The position numbers were made by a program, and so were the translations under genes. Below are positions 1 through 11,653 of a stretch of DNA of 40,340 bases, piece by piece. Origin of the DNA: an uncultured Pelagibacteraceae bacterium (GTDB taxonomy: Bacteria > Pseudomonadota > Alphaproteobacteria > Pelagibacterales > AG-422-B15); the NCBI GenBank assembly GCA_902590345.1, contig CACIWK010000001.1, positions 1 through 40,340 of the forward strand, written 5' to 3'. Each line of letters opens with the position of its first letter. The stretch's first letter is position 1. The notes under the pieces were generated by a model. It was not told the DNA's origin. It worked only from the letters and a program-made list of their open reading frames with translations, and ran no database searches.

Positions 1-1
1 G

Positions 2-481
<480 letters not shown>

Positions 482-490
482 TAAATTTTG

Positions 491-518
491 TTGACCTACA
501 TAAACTATTAAGTATTAT
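491..518 (+). promoter_or_regulatory. Candidate sigma-70 promoter for the rpsL operon
   Basis: In the 138-base gap between rpoC and rpsL there is TTGACC (491-496), a 16-base spacer, then TATTAT (513-518). This is close to the -35/-10 consensus (five of six at each). It would start a transcript near position 525, giving a leader of about 95 bases before rpsL. The call rests on pattern only, and the region is AT-rich, so chance matches are possible. Confidence 0.45.
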
Positions 519-533
519 TCGGCATTCTTAAAT

Positions 534-569
534 AGTAGGCGGTAGAGAAATCTAAACGCTACTTTTTAT
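534..569 (+). terminator. Hairpin plus T-run in the rpsL leader (terminator or attenuator)
   Basis: AGTAGGCG (534-541) can pair with CGCTACT (557-563) with one bulged G. This gives a seven-base-pair stem followed at once by a run of Ts. The shape is that of an intrinsic terminator. It lies downstream of the candidate promoter at 491-518 and upstream of rpsL. It could therefore end the rpoC transcript, or act as an attenuator within the rpsL leader. The stem is short and AT-containing, so it may be weak. Confidence 0.4.
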
Positions 570-619
570 TAATTTTTTAAAATAGTTAACCTTTTAGTTG
601 TAAAGACTGGAGATAATTT

Positions 620-991
620 ATGCCGACTATAAGTCAGCTTATAAGAAAACCTAGAACCAAAGTTCAAAAAAGAAATAAGGTTCCAGCATTAAAAGCAAAT
701 CCTCAAAAGCGAGGCGTCTGCACTAGAGTCTATACAACTACACCAAAAAAACCAAACTCAGCATTACGAAAAGTTGCGAGAGTTAGACTTACAAATGGAT
801 TTGAAGTTACAAGTTATATTGGTGGTGAGGGTCATAATTTGCAAGAACACTCAGTTATATTAATTCGAGGTGGCCGTGTTAAAGACTTACCAGGTGTTCG
901 TTATCATACTGTAAGAGGCGTTTTAGATACTCAAGGTGTCGGTGAGCGAAAGCAGCGTCGATCATTATACGGTACAAAGAAACCTAAATAA
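620..991 (+). CDS. rpsL: 30S ribosomal protein S12
   Basis: S12 sits at the decoding centre of the small ribosomal subunit and helps control translational accuracy. The 123-residue product has the usual length. It starts [12 protein letters not shown] and carries the conserved [22 protein letters not shown] block and the [28 protein letters not shown] region, the site of classical streptomycin-resistance changes. The lysines at the usual resistance positions (in PKKPNS and GRVKDLPG) look wild type. A GGAG ribosome-binding site lies 8 bases before the ATG. The stop codon abuts the start of rpsG, so the two are cotranscribed. Confidence 0.98.
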
Positions 992-1462
<471 letters not shown>

Positions 1463-1463
1463 T

Positions 1464-3539
1464 ATGACTAGAGAATATTCATTGCAGAAATATCGAAACA
1501 TAGGAATTATGGCTCATATTGATGCAGGCAAAACCACTACTACAGAGAGAATTCTTTATTACACAGGTAAAAGTCACAAAATAGGAGAAGTTCATGACGG
1601 CGCAGCCACAATGGACTGGATGGAACAAGAGCAAGAAAGAGGAATCACAATTACCTCTGCTGCAACTACATGTTTTTGGAATGACCATAGAATTAATATA
1701 ATTGATACTCCAGGCCACGTTGATTTTACTATTGAAGTTGAGAGATCACTCAGAGTTCTTGACGGTGCTGTTGCAGTATTTGATGGTGTTGCTGGCGTCG
1801 AACCGCAGACAGAAACTGTATGGAGACAGGCCAATAGATACAAAGTTCCAAGAATGTGCTTTGTTAATAAGATGGATCGTACTGGGGCCGATTTCTATAA
1901 GTGCCTTGATATGATTAAAGACAGACTTCAAGCAAATGCTTTAGTTTTACAAATTCCCTATGGAAGTGAGTCTGATCTTAAAGGTGTTATTGATCTTGTA
2001 AAAAATAAAGCAATTGTTTGGGCAAATGAAGACCTTGGAGCTAAATATGAGTACACAGAGATCCCCGAAGAATTAAAAGAGACTGCTGAAAAATATCGGT
2101 CTGAAATGGTTGAGATGGCAGTTGAGCAGGATGAAGAGGTTTTAGAAAAATATTTAGATGGGGAAGAGCCTAATGAGGAAACTCTCAATCGCTGTATTAG
2201 AAAAGGTACAATCAATTTTGAGTTCGTTCCAATTTTAACAGGCAGTGCATTTAAAAATAAAGGTGTACAACCACTTTTAGACGCAATTGTTAACTTTATG
2301 CCAGATCCTAGTGAGGTACAACAAGCTACAGGCAATATACCAGGCAAAGAAGAAGAAGAAATAAGAAAAGCATCAGATGATGAACCTTTTTCTGCATTAG
2401 CATTTAAAGTTGCTAACGATCCTTTTGTAGGCTCCCTTACCTTTACAAGAATCTACTCAGGAAAGTTAGAAGCTGGTTCAACAATCATGAATTCTGTTAA
2501 AGGCGATAAGGAAAGAATTGGAAGAATGCTGCTTATGCATGCAAATAACAGGGAAGATATTAAAACTGCATATGCTGGTGATATCGTTGCGATAGCAGGG
2601 TTGAAAGACACCATAACTGGTGAAACTTTATGTGACTCTCAAAAGCCAATCATATTAGAGTCAATGGATTTTCCTGATCCAGTGATTGAAATTGCTGTTG
2701 AGCCAAAAACGAAAGCTGACCAAGAAAAAATGGGTGAAGCGCTCGCTCGCCTTGCTAAAGAAGACCCTTCTTTTAGAGTAACTTCTGATGATGAGTCTGG
2801 GCAAACTGTTATTAAAGGAATGGGTGAGCTTCATTTGGATATTATTGTTGACCGAATGAAACGAGAGTTCAAGGTTGAAGCTAATGTAGGAGCTCCTCAG
2901 GTTGCTTACAGAGAAACAATATCCAAAGAAGTTGAAGTAACATATACACATAAAAAACAAAGTGGAGGAGCCGGTCAGTTCGCTGAAGTAAAAATTATTG
3001 CTGAGGGATGTGAACCGGGGACAGGAAGATTATTTGAAGACAAAATTAAGGGAGGTAACATACCTAAAGAGTATATTCCAGGAGTTGAAAAAGGAATTGA
3101 GAGTGTCGCTGATACGGGTGTCATAGCCGGTTTCCCAATAATTGATTACAAGGTAACATTAATCGATGGAAAATATCACGATGTAGACTCTAGTAGTTTA
3201 GCTTTTGAAATAGCTGGAAGAATGGCATTCAAAGATGCTTGTCAAAAAGCAGGCCCAAAACTTCTTGAGCCTATTATGAGAGTTGAGGTGGTTACGCCTG
3301 AAGAGTTTATGGGGGATGTTATAGGTGATTTAAGTAGTCGAAGGGGTCAAGTTAGTGGAAGTGAAGCTAGAGGCAATACAACAGCGATTAGTTCAATGGT
3401 GCCTCTTGCGAATATGTTTGGCTATGTTAACACATTACGTTCCATGACTCAGGGAAGAGCACAGTATTCAATGTTTTTTGATCATTATGAGCAAGTACCT
3501 CAAAATGTTCAAGATGAGGTAAAAGCAAAGTTTGCATAA
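1464..3539 (+). CDS. fusA: Elongation factor G
   Basis: EF-G is the GTPase that drives ribosomal translocation. The product has the G1 motif [10 protein letters not shown], the G2-region RGITITSAA, the G3 motif DTPGHVDF and the G4 motif NKMD. Domains II to V follow, ending at ...[11 protein letters not shown]; about 691 residues is the family's normal size. I start it at the ATG at 1464 ([10 protein letters not shown]), because the frame's earlier ATG at 1443 lies inside rpsG and would add seven unusual residues. An AGGTGG sequence inside the end of rpsG can serve as ribosome-binding site. The gene is followed after 9 bases by rpsJ, with no tuf between them. Confidence 0.97.
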
Positions 3540-3548
3540 GTATTAAAA

Positions 3549-3857
3549 ATGGAAAACCAAAATATCAAAATAAGATTAAAGGCTTTTGACCATGGTGTAC
3601 TCGATAAATCATCAGTTGAAATCGTTGATACAGCTAAAAGAACTGGGGCAATGGTGAAAGGTCCAATACCTTTACCGACAAATAATGAGAAATTTACAGT
3701 TCTTCGATCTCCACATGTTAACAAAAAAAGTAGGGAGCAGTTCGAGATCAGGACTCATAAGAGATTAATAGAGATAGTCGACCCGACGCCACAAACAGTC
3801 GATGCACTAATGAAATTAGATTTAGCTTCAGGAGTTGATGTAGAGATCAAATTATAA
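3549..3857 (+). CDS. rpsJ: 30S ribosomal protein S10
   Basis: S10 is a small-subunit head protein and also the NusE partner in antitermination complexes. The 102-residue product has the usual length and shows [26 protein letters not shown] near the start, [35 protein letters not shown] in the middle loop and the end [12 protein letters not shown]. It begins the S10 operon and lies only 3 bases before rplC. A tuf gene normally separates fusA from rpsJ in this group, but here the gap is 9 bases. Confidence 0.97.
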
Positions 3858-3860
3858 GAT

Positions 3861-4550
3861 ATGAGATCAGGTATTATAGCAAAAAAGATTGGAATGAGTA
3901 ATTTGTACACACAAAGCGGAACAAATATTCCTGTTACTGTACTTCATGTTGAAAATTGCAAAATTATCGATCGGATTACATCAGAAAATGAAAAATCAGA
4001 TAAGGTATTGGTTGGTGCCTGTAAGTTAAAAAAAATATCAAAATCACAGAAGGGCTTCTTTGATAAAAAAAAATCAGATGCTTATAAATTTCTTAGAGAG
4101 TTTGAAATTAGTAAAGATCAAGAGATTAAAAGTGGAGACGAATTGAAAGCAAGTCATTTTAAGGAAGGTCAATTTATTGATGTATCTGGTTTCACGAAAG
4201 GCAAAGGATTTGCTGGAGTAATGAAACGTCACAATTTCTCTGGCCTGAGAGCTTCTCATGGTGTTTCAGTTTCACATCGAAGCCATGGATCTACAGGCCA
4301 GTGTCAAGATCCCGGTAAAGTTTTCAAAGGAAAAAAGATGGCTGGACAGTACGGAGATGTTCATAAAACTCTTCAAAGCTTACAGGTTGTAAAGGTTGAT
4401 GAACAAAAGAATCTAATATGTGTAAAAGGAGCTACACCTGGCTCAAGCGGAACTTGGTTAGTTGTTGAGGACTCAATTAAAAAAGACGGCATCAAAGAAA
4501 TAGAAGTCACACCAGTAAAATCAGAAAAAGAAGTTAAGAAGGAAAAATAA
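3861..4550 (+). CDS. rplC: 50S ribosomal protein L3
   Basis: L3 is an early-assembly protein of the large subunit that reaches towards the peptidyl-transferase centre. The 229-residue product opens MRSGIIAKKIGMSNLY, typical of alphaproteobacterial L3. It includes the core GFTKGKGFAGVMKRHNF and the ASHGVSVSHRSHGSTGQCQDPGKVFKGKKMAGQYG loop. That loop holds the glutamine (GSTGQ) that is methylated by PrmB in relatives. A lysine- and glutamate-rich tail (KSEKEVKKEK) extends the C-terminus. Four bases after its stop the next S10-operon gene, rplD, begins but is broken after a few codons. Confidence 0.97.
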   Translation: MRSGIIAKKIGMSNLYTQSGTNIPVTVLHVENCKIIDRITSENEKSDKVLVGACKLKKISKSQKGFFDKKKSDAYKFLREFEISKDQEIKSGDELKASHFKEGQFIDVSGFTKGKGFAGVMKRHNFSGLRASHGVSVSHRSHGSTGQCQDPGKVFKGKKMAGQYGDVHKTLQSLQVVKVDEQKNLICVKGATPGSSGTWLVVEDSIKKDGIKEIEVTPVKSEKEVKKEK

Positions 4551-4554
4551 GTAA

Positions 4555-4608
4555 ATGCAAATTGACGTTCATAAAATAGATGGAAAGAATTTTAAACGAA
4601 CAATTTAA
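4555..4608 (+). pseudogene. rplD: Truncated start of 50S ribosomal protein L4
   Basis: Four bases after rplC an ATG opens a reading frame whose first ten residues, MQIDVHKIDG, look like the start of L4, the gene expected here in the S10 operon. The frame then runs into the 96-bp repeat (from 4583) and stops after 17 codons, where a full L4 has about 200. No other S10-operon gene (rplW, rplB, rpsS) follows. L4 is needed for ribosome assembly, so an intact copy must exist elsewhere, or this junction is artificial. The identification rests on position and a short match, so it is likely but not proven. Confidence 0.72.
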
Positions 4609-4678
4609 ATTTTAAAACTAATCAGTTGTTATAATTGCCTGAAAAGGTCCACTGCCAAAAGTTATCTGGTCTGAACCG
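4583..4678 (+). repeat. 96-bp perfect direct repeat, copy A (intruding copy)
   Basis: These 96 bases are identical to 8914-9009. By content they encode the last residues and stop of NAD kinase on the plus strand and the last 19 residues of a secreted protein on the minus strand, neither of which belongs here. The left edge falls inside rplD and the right edge inside the 3' end of the formate dehydrogenase gene. Bases flanking the repeat differ at both ends (G against T before it, C against T after it), so the limits are sharp. Confidence 0.97.
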
Positions 4679-5841
4679 CTTGTCGCAGAACCTTCACTAT
4701 AAGAGTGAGCGCCTGTTCCAGCAAGCGCGCCATCTTTAACAATTGTATATTCAGTTCTTTGATCTTCTCCAGCAAATAAACATTCAAGAATTTCCCTCAC
4801 CCCAGCTGCATATCTTGCTTGTGCTGATAGCGAAGTTCCTGAAGTATGTGGTGTCATTCCATGATTTGGCATGGTTCGCCATACATGATCGTTTGGAGCG
4901 GGCTGTGGGAACCATACGTCACCAGCATAACCACTTAATTGACCTGACTCTAAGGCACGGGCAATTGCATCACGATTACAAATTTTACCGCGTGCAGTAT
5001 TTACAATATATGCTCCTTTTTTCATTTTTCCGATCATCTCATCGTCAAAGAGATTTTCAGTTTCAGGGTGAAGTGGACAATTAATCGTTACAACGTCACA
5101 CACTGCAACCATTGACTCAACAGAATCATGAAAAGTCAAATTCAATTCTTTTTCTACTGACTCTGGTAATCTATGTCTGTCAAAATAATGCATGTGAACA
5201 TCAAAATGCTTAAGTTTTCTTAGTGCATCTAAACCTATCCTCCCAGCTGCAACAGTACCTACATGCATACCTTCAAGGTCGTATGATCTTTGTACTGCAT
5301 CAGCAATATTCCAACCACCTTCATTAATAATCCGGTATTGATTATGATAATCTCTTACCAGGGACAAAATCATCATCACAATATGCTCTGCCACAGATCT
5401 TGAATTACAGAAGGTAACTTCCATAACATCAATTTTATTGTCCATAGCTGCTTGTAAATCAACATGGTCTGAACCAATGCCAGCAGTTATTGCCATTTTT
5501 AAGTTTTTAGCCATAGCAATACGTTCTTTTGTTAAATAAAAGGGAAAGAAGGGTTGTGAGATAACTACATCAGCATCAACAAGTTCTTTTTCCGCTACGC
5601 ATCCAGGTGCATCCTTATCATTTGTAACTACCAATGTATGGCCAGCATCCTCAAGAAATTTTCTTAAGCCAAGCTCGCCGGAAACACACCCAAGCAATTC
5701 CCCTGGATTAAAATCTATCCCTTTTGGAGTTGGCAATGTTTGTCCATCCGGGTACTTTTCAATTTTTGGCAAATTTTCTACAGGATAACTTGACGGCATT
5801 CCCCCTTTTGGATCATCGTATAAAATACACAATACTTTCAT
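4618..5841 (-). CDS. fdh: NAD-dependent formate dehydrogenase with a replaced C-terminal tail
   Basis: This enzyme oxidises formate to CO2 with reduction of NAD+, a cytoplasmic, metal-free D-2-hydroxyacid-dehydrogenase-family protein. Key residues appear at the numbering known for the Pseudomonas sp. 101 enzyme: Asn146, the AGRIG dinucleotide loop near 199-203, Asp221 (NAD+ preference), Arg284, Gln313 and His332. Residues 1-388 align well with that family, up to GALAGTGAHSYSEGSATS. The last 19 residues (389-407) are encoded by the 96-bp repeat and match the C-terminus of the secreted protein at 8949-9818 instead of the family's EEAAKFKKAV-like end. A good ribosome-binding site (AAGGAGATATA) precedes the ATG. 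It is the last gene of the glpK-aldolase-fdh run. The core is intact, so activity is plausible if the junction is real. Confidence 0.95.
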   Translation of the reverse strand: MKVLCILYDDPKGGMPSSYPVENLPKIEKYPDGQTLPTPKGIDFNPGELLGCVSGELGLRKFLEDAGHTLVVTNDKDAPGCVAEKELVDADVVISQPFFPFYLTKERIAMAKNLKMAITAGIGSDHVDLQAAMDNKIDVMEVTFCNSRSVAEHIVMMILSLVRDYHNQYRIINEGGWNIADAVQRSYDLEGMHVGTVAAGRIGLDALRKLKHFDVHMHYFDRHRLPESVEKELNLTFHDSVESMVAVCDVVTINCPLHPETENLFDDEMIGKMKKGAYIVNTARGKICNRDAIARALESGQLSGYAGDVWFPQPAPNDHVWRTMPNHGMTPHTSGTSLSAQARYAAGVREILECLFAGEDQRTEYTIVKDGALAGTGAHSYSEGSATSGSDQITFGSGPFQAIITTD

Positions 5842-5865
5842 TTATATCTCCTTAATTTATTTTGA

Positions 5866-6612
5866 TTAATTTAGAAAAGATGAGTCTAGACGTTCCATCT
5901 TTCTCTTTACTGCAGGCCATAGTAATGCTGCAGCCATTTCTCTTCCCTCACCTTGTTGTCTTGTTGTTTCAATTGATTCCTCTGAGGGGTAGTTCAATTC
6001 AAGATTTCCAGAAAGAGCTCTTACTTGATAAGAGCATGCTTTTTCTAAGAAATATATATTAGTGAATGCTTCTGCAACATTTTTACCTAAAGCCAATGTT
6101 CCATGATTTCTAAGTATCATTAAACGCGCTTCACCTAGATCCTTTACCAATCTTTCTTTTTCTTCTTCAAAAAGAGCAACTCCTTCATAATCGTGATATG
6201 CGATTTGACTCCTAACTAACATTCCAGTTTGAGATAAAGGCAATAAACCATCTTTCAATGATGCGACTGCTACGCCATCATTTGAGTGAAGATGAACAAT
6301 ACAATGTGCATCCTCTCTTTTATCATGTATTGCACTATGAATGGTAAAACCTGCAGGATTTATAAAATTATTTGTGTCACTAAGTATTTTTCCCTTTAAG
6401 TTAACTTTCACCAAGTTTGAAGCAGTTATTTCATCAAATAAAAAACCATAAGGGTTAATTAAAAATTCATCATCAGTCCCAGGAACTTTAGCAGATATAT
6501 GTGTAAATATTAAATCATCCCAACCAAAATATGGAATTGTTCGATAGAATGCAGCCAAGTCTTGTCTTGTTTCCCATTCTTCTTTTGAAACACTATTTTT
6601 CACATCAACCAT
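5866..6612 (-). CDS. Class II aldolase/adducin-family protein
   Basis: Members of this family are zinc-dependent aldolases, epimerases or decarboxylases acting on sugar phosphates or related compounds; the substrate here cannot be read from the sequence. The 248-residue product has the family's metal-site histidines in HLHSNDG (middle) and RNHGTL (C-terminal half). It also has FTHISAKVPG and FLINPYGFLFDEI near the N-terminus, and no signal peptide. This short type with N-terminal WETRQDLAAFYR is common in marine bacteria as a stand-alone annotation. Its start overlaps the end of glpK by 8 bases and fdh follows after 24 bases, so the three are probably one operon. Confidence 0.88.
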   Translation of the reverse strand: MVDVKNSVSKEEWETRQDLAAFYRTIPYFGWDDLIFTHISAKVPGTDDEFLINPYGFLFDEITASNLVKVNLKGKILSDTNNFINPAGFTIHSAIHDKREDAHCIVHLHSNDGVAVASLKDGLLPLSQTGMLVRSQIAYHDYEGVALFEEEKERLVKDLGEARLMILRNHGTLALGKNVAEAFTNIYFLEKACSYQVRALSGNLELNYPSEESIETTRQQGEGREMAAALLWPAVKRKMERLDSSFLN

Positions 6613-8098
6613 TATTCATTAGTCCTTTTACAGTTTTTAACCATCTATTATATTGTTGATCTGCCTCGTCCAACGAAATAGCAGGCTCAAATTTGCGATC
6701 AGTCTTCCACAATTTCTCGACCTCTGCAACATCTTTGTATACACCAGATTTCATTCCAGCTAAGTAAGCTGCACCCATAGCAGTCGACTCTTGATTCAAA
6801 GGCCTTTCTATTCTTACTTGAGTGATATCTGATAATAATTGCATCATAAGATTATTTTTAGACATGCCTCCATCAACACGAATAGTAAAATCATTTCTCT
6901 TTAGTTTTGTATCGTTAAGCAGGCACTCAAGAAGATCTCTTGTTTGATAACATATTGATTTTAATGCAGCAATGGCAATATCAGCCTTTGAAGTATCTCG
7001 AGTAATTCCTGAAATTTGACCCCTTACATCAGAATTCCAATAAGGAGCACCCAAACCCGTAAAAGCAGGAATGAATTGTACTTCGTTAGTGCTGTTATTT
7101 GCGAGCTCTTCAACCTTGCTTGCATCGTTGATAAAATTCATTTTATCACGCATCCATTGAACAACAGTACCCGCATTGAAAATACTACCCTCTAAAGCAA
7201 AATCTTTTTTATCAAATATATTATAAGCTTTAGTAGACAATAATTTGGACTCTGACTCTATAAATTTATTTCCAGTATTCATTAATAAAAAACAACCCGT
7301 ACCATAAGTTGATTTAACCATTCCTTCCTTGAAACAAGCCTGTCCAATAGTAGCTGCCTGTTGATCACCGGCTACGCCGCCTATTGAAATTTTTTCTCCA
7401 AAGAAACTAGAATCTATTGCTCCAAAATCATCAGCACAATTTTTTACATCAGGCAAAATATTTTTGTTAATATTAAAAATATTTAATAATTCATCATCCC
7501 AACAATCTTCATTTATATTATAAAGCATTGTTCTTGATGCATTTGTAACATCAGTATAATGACATTCACCTTTTGTAAAATTCCAAATGAGCCAAGAATC
7601 AATAGTTCCAACTAATAAATTATTTTCATGAATTATTTTTTTTGCTTCTTCAATATTTTCAATGATCCATTTAATTTTTGTTGCTGAAAAGTAAGGATCA
7701 ATTATGAGACCAGTCTTTGATTGGATTAGTTTTGTTAAATTCTTTTCTCTTAATGTCTCACAAAAATTTTCTGTTCGCCTGTCCTGCCACACAATAGCAT
7801 TGTAGACTGGCTTCCCTGTTATTTTGTTCCATGCAACAACCGTCTCTCTTTGATTTGTTATACCTGCAATATTAATATCTTTTGGGCTAATGTTTGTTTC
7901 TTTAATTACAAAGTTAATAGCGTCTTGTGTTGTCTTTAAAATTTCTATTGGATCATGCTCAACCCAGCCATCATTTGGGAAATACTGTTTAAATTCGAAG
8001 TTTTTTTGACTAATAATATTTCCTTGAATATCTGAAATTAAGGCCCGTGAACTGGTTGTGCCTTGATCTATTGAGAGTAAATACCCATCTAAAGACAT
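6605..8098 (-). CDS. glpK: Glycerol kinase
   Basis: Glycerol kinase phosphorylates glycerol to sn-glycerol 3-phosphate with ATP in the cytoplasm. The 497-residue product is the normal length. It has the N-terminal phosphate-binding SIDQGTTSSRALI, the NQRETVVAWNK segment with glycerol-contacting residues, the IVWQDRRT motif, VAGDQQAATIGQ, TYGTGCFLLMNTG and the C-terminal FGGY-family signature around FTIRVDGGMSKNNLMMQLLSDI. No glpF transporter or glpD dehydrogenase is visible beside it; instead a class II aldolase overlaps its 3' end. It diverges from nadK across an 80-base AT-rich gap in which I cannot fix a promoter. Confidence 0.95.
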   Translation of the reverse strand: MSLDGYLLSIDQGTTSSRALISDIQGNIISQKNFEFKQYFPNDGWVEHDPIEILKTTQDAINFVIKETNISPKDINIAGITNQRETVVAWNKITGKPVYNAIVWQDRRTENFCETLREKNLTKLIQSKTGLIIDPYFSATKIKWIIENIEEAKKIIHENNLLVGTIDSWLIWNFTKGECHYTDVTNASRTMLYNINEDCWDDELLNIFNINKNILPDVKNCADDFGAIDSSFFGEKISIGGVAGDQQAATIGQACFKEGMVKSTYGTGCFLLMNTGNKFIESESKLLSTKAYNIFDKKDFALEGSIFNAGTVVQWMRDKMNFINDASKVEELANNSTNEVQFIPAFTGLGAPYWNSDVRGQISGITRDTSKADIAIAALKSICYQTRDLLECLLNDTKLKRNDFTIRVDGGMSKNNLMMQLLSDITQVRIERPLNQESTAMGAAYLAGMKSGVYKDVAEVEKLWKTDRKFEPAISLDEADQQYNRWLKTVKGLMNNG

Positions 8099-8178
8099 AA
8101 GATAAGAATAATTAATTAATTATGTTCAATTAGAGGGGATTTTAGGATAAAGGAATACTTTTTTGTAGGTAAAAAACC

Positions 8179-8946
8179 ATGAATTTGAATAAACCAGTTT
8201 TTTTGGCTTCCAGCAGTGATGAGGCAAGCTCTCAGAAAAAGATTTTAGAAGATAAGTTCGGTAAGAATGAATTTGATGAAGCTGATGTGATAGTAGTCCT
8301 GGGCGGTGATGGATTTATGCTTGAAGCTATAAAATCTCACATGGACAGACAATTGCCTATTTTTGGATTAAATTATGGTAGTGTTGGATTTCTGATGAAC
8401 TCCTCAAATCAAAATGATTTGGTAAATAGAATTAATCAATCTCAATCAATAAAAATATCTCCGTTGATTATGAAAGCTGTGAGTGTCGATGGTTCCATTC
8501 ATGAAGCAATTGCTATTAACGAAGTATCATTACTCAGAGAAACACATCAAGCGTCAAAAATAAAAATTTCAGTTGATGGCAAAGTTAGGTTAGATGAACT
8601 AATCTGTGATGGTGTATTAATTTCAACACCGTCTGGTAGCACAGCTTACAATTTATCTGCTCACGGTCCAATACTCCCAATAAATGCAGATGTTCTTGCA
8701 TTAACTCCTATAAGTGCTTTTAGACCTAGAAGATGGAAAGGTGCAATACTAAATAATGAGTCAAATGTGAAATTTGAAATTATTGAAAGTAAGAAAAGAC
8801 CCGTAAGTGTTGTCGCTGATAGTACTGAGTTTAGAGAAATTAGTTCAGTTGAAGTACATCAAAGTAAAGATCAAATTGTAGAGCTTTTATTCGATGAAGA
8901 CCACTCATTTGATGAAAGAATTTTAAACGAACAATTTAAATTTTAA
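8179..8946 (+). CDS. nadK: NAD kinase
   Basis: NAD kinase makes NADP+ from NAD+ and ATP (or polyphosphate). The 255-residue product is of the short alphaproteobacterial type. It carries the GGDG motif at residues 42-45 (VVLGGDGFMLEA), the conserved NE pair in AINEVSLLRE, the DGVLISTPSGSTAYNLSAHGPI block and a typical C-terminus ending DHSFDERILNEQF. The gene is complete and in its native context. Its last 33 bases and stop lie within the 96-bp repeat, whose other copy is 4.3 kb upstream. It converges on the secreted-protein gene with 2 bases between stops. Confidence 0.96.
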   Translation: MNLNKPVFLASSSDEASSQKKILEDKFGKNEFDEADVIVVLGGDGFMLEAIKSHMDRQLPIFGLNYGSVGFLMNSSNQNDLVNRINQSQSIKISPLIMKAVSVDGSIHEAIAINEVSLLRETHQASKIKISVDGKVRLDELICDGVLISTPSGSTAYNLSAHGPILPINADVLALTPISAFRPRRWKGAILNNESNVKFEIIESKKRPVSVVADSTEFREISSVEVHQSKDQIVELLFDEDHSFDERILNEQFKF

Positions 8947-9009
8947 AACTAATCAGTTGTTATAATTGCCTGAAAAGGTCCACTGCCAAAAGTTATCTGG
9001 TCTGAACCG
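8914..9009 (+). repeat. 96-bp perfect direct repeat, copy B (native copy)
   Basis: This copy is identical to 4583-4678. Here it fits its surroundings: it covers the last codons and stop of nadK and, on the other strand, the stop and last codons of the secreted-protein gene. The gene structure is intact on both sides, so this is taken as the source copy. Confidence 0.97.
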
Positions 9010-10960: not shown

Positions 10961-11653
10961 TTAATTGCTGTCTGATACTGCAGCTACATAAATAGCCATA
11001 CCAAATGCAATTTTATTAACAAAGTCTGCAAGGTTATAGATTAAGTTCAATGAACCAGCGTCAACGCCGCCACCGAAGTAACCTACAGCATAACCGATTG
11101 GATAAATTGCCCATCCGACTGTAACAATTAATCTCAATGCGTTAAATGCAGTCTGACCAGCAGCGTTTCCACTACCAGCACTTGCCTTGCTTGCTTCACC
11201 TGCAAAAACCTCGTAGATGATATATAACCATCCAGCCATACCTATTACGAAGGCTAGAGTTACATTCATCGCTCCAGTTTCACCCATGTAACCGAAGACA
11301 AGCATAATTATTGATGCTATTAATAGTCTCCAGAAAAGGCTTGAAGCAACAGCAGTCATTGCTGCAAGAATTACATAGAATTCTACGATTTGTAGAGGCA
11401 CAGTAATTAACCAGTCAATATAACGAAGGACTGTTGGTGAGTCACCAGTAGCAACCCATACACCTCTCATGTAGAAGTAGTGCCACGCCGCAATACCAGT
11501 AACCAAACCAGCTACTGTAAGGGACGTTTTCCATTTAGCTGCTACACGATCTCTTTCAAGAAAGAAGAAAGCAGTAGCGGCAACCATGGCCATAGAGATC
11601 AACCAAAACGAAATCGCAACGTGATCTCCGGGATTTAGCATTAATACTTTCAT
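10961..11653 (-). CDS. Proteorhodopsin, blue-light type, no signal peptide
   Basis: This is a seven-helix retinal protein that pumps protons outward across the inner membrane in light. Residues are given here, with standard green-proteorhodopsin numbers in parentheses: His58 (75), proton acceptor Asp80 (97), Gln88 at the spectral-tuning site (105), proton donor Glu91 (108) and retinal-binding Lys214 (231) in NLADFVNKI. Gln at the tuning site indicates blue absorption, as in open-ocean forms. At 230 residues it is shorter than typical proteorhodopsins because the cleavable signal peptide is missing. An in-frame TAA lies 10 codons upstream of the ATG, so no longer start exists. An AAGGGGA ribosome-binding site precedes the ATG. 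It is a single-gene unit with a strong terminator. No retinal-synthesis gene (blh, crt) is in the window. Confidence 0.97.
   Translation of the reverse strand: MKVLMLNPGDHVAISFWLISMAMVAATAFFFLERDRVAAKWKTSLTVAGLVTGIAAWHYFYMRGVWVATGDSPTVLRYIDWLITVPLQIVEFYVILAAMTAVASSLFWRLLIASIIMLVFGYMGETGAMNVTLAFVIGMAGWLYIIYEVFAGEASKASAGSGNAAGQTAFNALRLIVTVGWAIYPIGYAVGYFGGGVDAGSLNLIYNLADFVNKIAFGMAIYVAAVSDSN

Follow-up and report, generated by a model that had tools for sequence, protein, structure and literature searches.

A probable three-segment amplification chimera joins rplD to the formate dehydrogenase locus in a contig of an uncultured Pelagibacteraceae genome

The window, by which we mean the whole stretch of 40,340 nucleotides analysed here, starts at the first base of contig C1 (CACIWK010000001.1, 250,048 bp) of an uncultured Pelagibacteraceae genome (G000). 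The assembly of this genome comprises 1,011,185 bases in 28 contigs, is 76% complete and serves as a species representative. From its left edge the window carries the 3' end of rpoC and a run of genes that breaks off within the first codons of rplD, 4.6 kb from the contig start, and a block containing the formate dehydrogenase gene (fdh), glpK and nadK follows on the other side of a 96-bp stretch. An earlier note on this DNA had described that stretch as one copy of a perfect repeat and had called the join between the two blocks suspect. The segments, joins and affected reading frames are as follows.

1 to 4589 (+): segment 1, with the rpoC 3' end, rpsL, rpsG, fusA, rpsJ, rplC and the first rplD codons; matches the relative G001 on its contig C3, 72947-68358, at 94%
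4555 to 4608 (+): truncated rplD frame of 17 codons, of which codons 1-11 are native
4583 to 4589 (+): first join, where rplD and the end of nadK overlap by 4-7 nt (GAAA to GAAAGAA)
4583 to 4678 (+): segment 2 (copy A), the apparent templated insert, identical to 8914-9009
4618 to 5841 (-): fdh frame with a probably false ending of 17 foreign residues
4670 to 4678 (+): second join, a 9-nt overlap, TCTGAACCG, between the end of the secreted-protein gene and the end of fdh
4670 to 9009 (+): segment 3 (given here as far as copy B), with fdh, an aldolase-like gene, glpK and nadK; matches G001 contig C3 from 87302 onward at 94%, and G015 contig C2 in order and orientation
8914 to 9009 (+): copy B, the native nadK 3' end together with the 3' end of the convergent secreted-protein gene

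Positions 4583-4678 and 8914-9009 agree base for base over 96 bp, as the note had stated, and the bases just outside the repeat differ at once between copies A and B. A search of G000 against itself matched the stretch at these two places only, and across the whole of contig C1 the pair is the sole exact direct repeat of at least 40 bp, with no exact inverted repeat of at least 40 bp found in the same contig. A mobile element or a repeat family was rejected on the grounds that the stretch occupies only two places in the genome. Among 11 relatives, nine match the insert above 60 bits (G007 and G023 fall below this threshold), and in G001 the match sits at the boundary between nadK and the secreted-protein gene. 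The relatives thereby bear out the note's assignment, confirming that copy B is the native one and that copy A lies within a false join.

Comparison with the relatives also revealed where the two flanking blocks belong. On contig C3 of G001, with gene names read from the ORF translations rather than from a family search, the order runs rplN, rplP, rpsC, rplV, rpsS, rplB, rplW, rplD, rplC, rpsJ, fusA, rpsG, rpsL, rpoC, rpoB, then rplL, rplJ, rplA, nusG, tuf, a trmH-like gene, a desaturase-like gene and fdh, and finally the aldolase-like gene, glpK, nadK and the secreted-protein gene. Segment 1, which also matches ten further relatives up to window position 4588 or 4589, has its native place elsewhere, in the opposite orientation relative to fdh. 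In all 17 genus genomes with both flanks on one contig (the 11 relatives, picked for this property, plus G052, G054, G056, G061, G062 and G064), the mutual orientation of the rplD start and the fdh end is the reverse of that in the window, and subtraction of coordinates puts them 18.6-32.4 kb apart. At base level, the native rplD sequence departs from the window beyond 4589, and the native 3' end of fdh departs from it beyond 4670, in 11 of 11 relatives, the flank comparison being based on matches above 60 bits. The suspicion voiced about the join was thus well placed: the window brings together two stretches of a single neighbourhood, one inverted relative to the other, and between them stand 96 bp from the boundary of nadK and the secreted-protein gene. 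As to the natural 3' neighbour of fdh, for which the note had proposed a search of related genomes, 15 of 80 named loci with fdh share the neighbourhood, and in 14 of these the native desaturase-like gene follows fdh, the contig of the remaining one (L067) ending at fdh. Beside fdh, the other 65 loci showed none of the remaining marker genes in the set, and not one of the 80 loci yielded rplD. To the right of the join, contig C1 keeps the order and orientation of G015 contig C2 from 4670 to 194054, where the latter ends, with some gaps and divergent patches; among matches above 150 bits, no inversion besides the join was seen over this range.

The orientation of the flanks bears directly on one of the two origins that the note had offered, namely loss of the DNA between rplD and fdh through a deletion that was then repaired with templated filler. 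A filler of 96 bp copied from 4.3 kb away is indeed present, but the flanks are oppositely oriented in 17 of 17 genus genomes, so that an inversion would be needed and a simple deletion does not fit. Matches to rpsJ and fdh in the relative orientation of the window do occur on one contig in two distant genomes of another family, G025 and G032, but about 194 and 183 kb apart. We consider the chance that such a deletion produced the window to be negligible.

We further delimited the two joins at base resolution. On the left side, rplD can be followed to 4589 and the nadK end begins at 4583. The six nearest of the 11 relatives read GGAAAAAA followed by G, and have GAAAAAA where the window has GAAAGAA; the overlap is therefore given as 4 to 7 nt, a range judged from the rplD of the relatives, the native rplD of G000 itself being absent from the assembly. 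Of the microhomology that the note had proposed at the edges, the short overlaps as such hold, whereas the left one, given as GAAAGAATTTTAAA, is replaced by GAAA to GAAAGAA, and the right one, given as 8 nt, is the 9-nt TCTGAACCG. When 2 million random joins were drawn between places within the window in either orientation, overlaps of at least 4, 7 and 9 bases arose in fractions of 0.024, 0.0009 and 0.0001, respectively. Given that overlaps of this length are rarely reached by chance, the joins look like the annealing of short matching ends rather than blunt joining. A strong hairpin at the breakpoint was considered separately and rejected, the best 80-base window in G001 86600-87600 ranking 41 (counted from 0) among 848.

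The same overlaps speak to the possibility of a pure assembly error, in which the assembler would have walked from rplD into the nadK end and on into fdh without a physical molecule that carried the joins. Short-read assemblers do stumble over repeats of about 100 bp, and only 4.6 kb lie between the contig start and the join. However, assemblers join reads on words longer than the 4-7 or 9 nt shared here, and the 96 bp would have to exist at both sites beforehand for a repeat to induce the misjoin. Since the overlaps are too short for an unaided assembler join, a physical molecule was probably read, and this molecule probably carried both joins; an error of the assembler by itself strikes us as extremely improbable.

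A molecule of this kind could also be the product of a real rearrangement in the cell. Microhomology-mediated template switching would then have formed either an inversion of roughly 19 kb or, with an intact rplD left elsewhere, an inverted duplication, and would have added the templated insert of 96 bp. Short overlaps together with a templated insert are also a signature of in-cell template switching, and the window resembles such events both in its short overlaps and in an insert copied from nearby. In contrast, the product would disrupt an essential ribosomal gene, and just one assembly shows it. As the note had claimed, copy A breaks genes on both sides. rplD, which encodes 206 aa in G001, stops after 17 codons, and the fdh ORF, with 407 aa compared to 399 in G001, ends in 17 residues from the secreted-protein gene where its final 9 native residues should stand. 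The rplD product, L4, is essential in well-studied bacteria, and an in-cell inversion should leave essential genes intact; here rplD is cut, and a search with the Pfam L4 model found no L4 gene in the 76% complete G000 assembly, although it was positive in 14 of 14 control genomes. Because the assembly is incomplete, we treat the absence of L4 as supporting evidence only, an intact copy possibly lying in the unrecovered quarter of the genome.

The distribution of the joins points in the same direction. The note had named the same junction in independent genomes as an observation that would speak against an artefact, and no such genome came to light: both joins, searched as patterns of 46 and 44 bases with up to 3 mismatches, had no match in 396 other genomes of the order, patterns of this strictness being mainly informative for close relatives and liable to miss a diverged join in distant genomes. 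Likewise, no match covering both flanks of the joins occurred in 52 other genomes of the family. Matches at the nadK ends of G060, G015 and G001 run 20 nt leftward past the first join, and those of G058 and G004 run 5 nt past the second, small overhangs that we take as local alignment ends. A gene order shared by the whole lineage was rejected, the joins being present in none of these relatives. Moreover, copies A and B show no difference over 96 bases while the relatives' versions diverge by about 9% (measured in G001), so any in-cell event must have been very recent. On this reading, a single cell would have been caught with the 96-bp insert and a rearrangement around the S10/str ribosomal operons, be it an inversion or an inverted duplication, before selection removed it, and we hold both the rearrangement and this particular course of it to be very unlikely.

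The native sequence around the breakpoints is itself poorly represented in G000. In G001 coordinates, contig C10 of G000 begins at 63249, no match to 63250-68357 was found in G000, 68358-72947 corresponds to window 1-4589, 73555-76614 corresponds to contig C24 over its entire length of 3,060 bp, and 76615-87301 had no match in G000 apart from a 285-bp match and shorter ones to copies elsewhere, the fdh block of the window starting at 87302. What natively lies beyond rplD is therefore missing, as is the native neighbour of fdh, and neither the native nor a reciprocal join is visible in the 76% complete assembly, where an intact rplD or a reciprocal join could go unseen. This gap between C10 and C1 suits poor local amplification, but it does not decide the matter, because the same stretch would equally be absent after a true inversion.

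DNA from single cells is amplified by phi29 MDA, and the source of G000 appears to be of this type. Codes of the single-cell type, for example AG-901-G03 and AH-287-F15, mark the close named loci, although 7 of the 15 have titles beginning with 'MAG:', which counts against a single-cell source. A full-text literature search found no mention of the codes of six close relatives. We presume that WGA-X was the method used for the GORG-Tropics collection. AG-901-N13 and AG-410-O08 are described as single amplified genomes of that collection (PMC11247762), WGA-X is described as an MDA method with a thermostable phi29 mutant (PMC5519541), and the workflow of the sequencing centre yielded 1.5 misassemblies per 100 kb on average in benchmark cultures (PMC11247762). 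From the codes of the relatives we infer that G000 stems from a single amplified genome.

MDA chimeras have been characterized in several studies. In one of them, 406 of 475 chimeras were inverted, with overlaps of 2-21 nt; inverted joins over more than 10 kb made up 69 of 475 and direct joins over less than 10 kb 11 of 475, and complementary bases were present in only 34.8% of the inverted joins over more than 10 kb (PMC1855051). The predominance of inverted chimeras is reported elsewhere as well (PMC6515389). Another study places the overlap peak at 7 nt, with more than 95% of overlaps at 3-13 nt and distances mainly below 5 kb (PMC5372508). Chimeras of three segments, termed '2-level', accounted for 564,397 and 445,861 of 24,595,400 and 15,664,038 chimeric read pairs in two samples, about 2-3% (PMC4595205). 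The window resembles this class closely: nearby segments lie out of their native order and inverted, as the 17 of 17 oppositely oriented genus genomes indicate, each join has a short overlap (4-7 and 9 nt, within the 3-13 nt of PMC5372508 and near the published peak of 6-7 nt), three segments are involved, and the source is apparently a single-cell genome. It differs from most MDA chimeras in its first, inverted hop, which at about 23 kb in G001 coordinates exceeds the 5-10 kb within which the segments usually lie, and in its second hop, which at 4.3 kb is direct and belongs to the rarer class. In contrast to published examples, it reached an assembled contig and not reads alone. The closeness of segments is a tendency in these papers and not a requirement, long hops being a known minority (69 of 475, PMC1855051).

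Taking the evidence together, the window is very probably a three-segment, '2-level' phi29 MDA chimera, a laboratory artefact rather than biology, and we infer that the event took place in the tube and not in the cell. Of the note's alternatives, the amplification chimera is thus the one best supported, with the orientation of the flanks speaking against the deletion and the shortness of the overlaps against an error of assembly. A displaced 3' end inside rplD would have paired, via 4-7 matching bases, with the opposite genomic strand where nadK ends, and would have been extended through the 96-bp stretch. The extended strand would then have annealed via 9 matching bases at the 3' end of fdh and continued across fdh, glpK and nadK. 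The same steps in mirror order on the complementary strand would account for the chimera just as well. With the native neighbours of both breakpoints unrecovered, the assembler would have followed the chimeric molecule. The window would accordingly provide a base-resolved case in which what is probably an amplification chimera of three segments has entered an assembled contig, here in a species-representative genome. In practical terms, window 1-4678 should be treated as separate from what follows it, the truncated rplD does not count as evidence of gene loss, the 407-aa fdh probably has a false ending, and gene-order studies should leave out the apparent inversion of the ribosomal operons.

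Several further observations concern the surroundings of fdh. For 4 of the 15 close named loci (L064, L065, L067 and L069), no more than 1.2 kb of contig remains past the fdh match (683, 342, 2 and 1167 bp), and the contig of L067 stops a few bases from the join site of the window; in a post hoc test such as this, the contig ends 3' of fdh may mark a recurrent weak spot in amplification or assembly. Beside the native fdh neighbour in G016 (contig C3, 88500-93500, reverse complement 1714-3704), there is a full tRNA-Thr(TGT) gene, after which its 3' half recurs four times as direct repeats of 47-52 nt, 94-100% identical and spaced 400-544 bp apart. One ORF lies in each interval (100, 143, 138 or 91 aa), and none of these was seen to be an integrase. 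Two repeats of the tRNA-Thr 3' half, 400 bp apart, lie at positions 1-452 of contig C16 of G047; G007 and G009 have one partial repeat each, and G001 has the tRNA alone. The array has the look of a tRNA-linked site at which one-gene cassettes accumulate. Directly after the tRNA-Thr gene, G001 carries, at positions 4275-4559 of locus L040, a 285-bp stretch encoding a 72-aa protein with a Cys-Gly-Cys-Cys end, which is found at another place in G000, G005, G012, G014 and G015 (85-88% identical); in G000 it lies on contig C2 at 68337-68623, between rpe-like and cupin-like ORFs, and is frameshifted in an A run relative to G001. Farther along the window, at 10961-11653 on the minus strand, a 230-aa ORF has the same neighbours as in G001 and, read by eye, resembles a proteorhodopsin.
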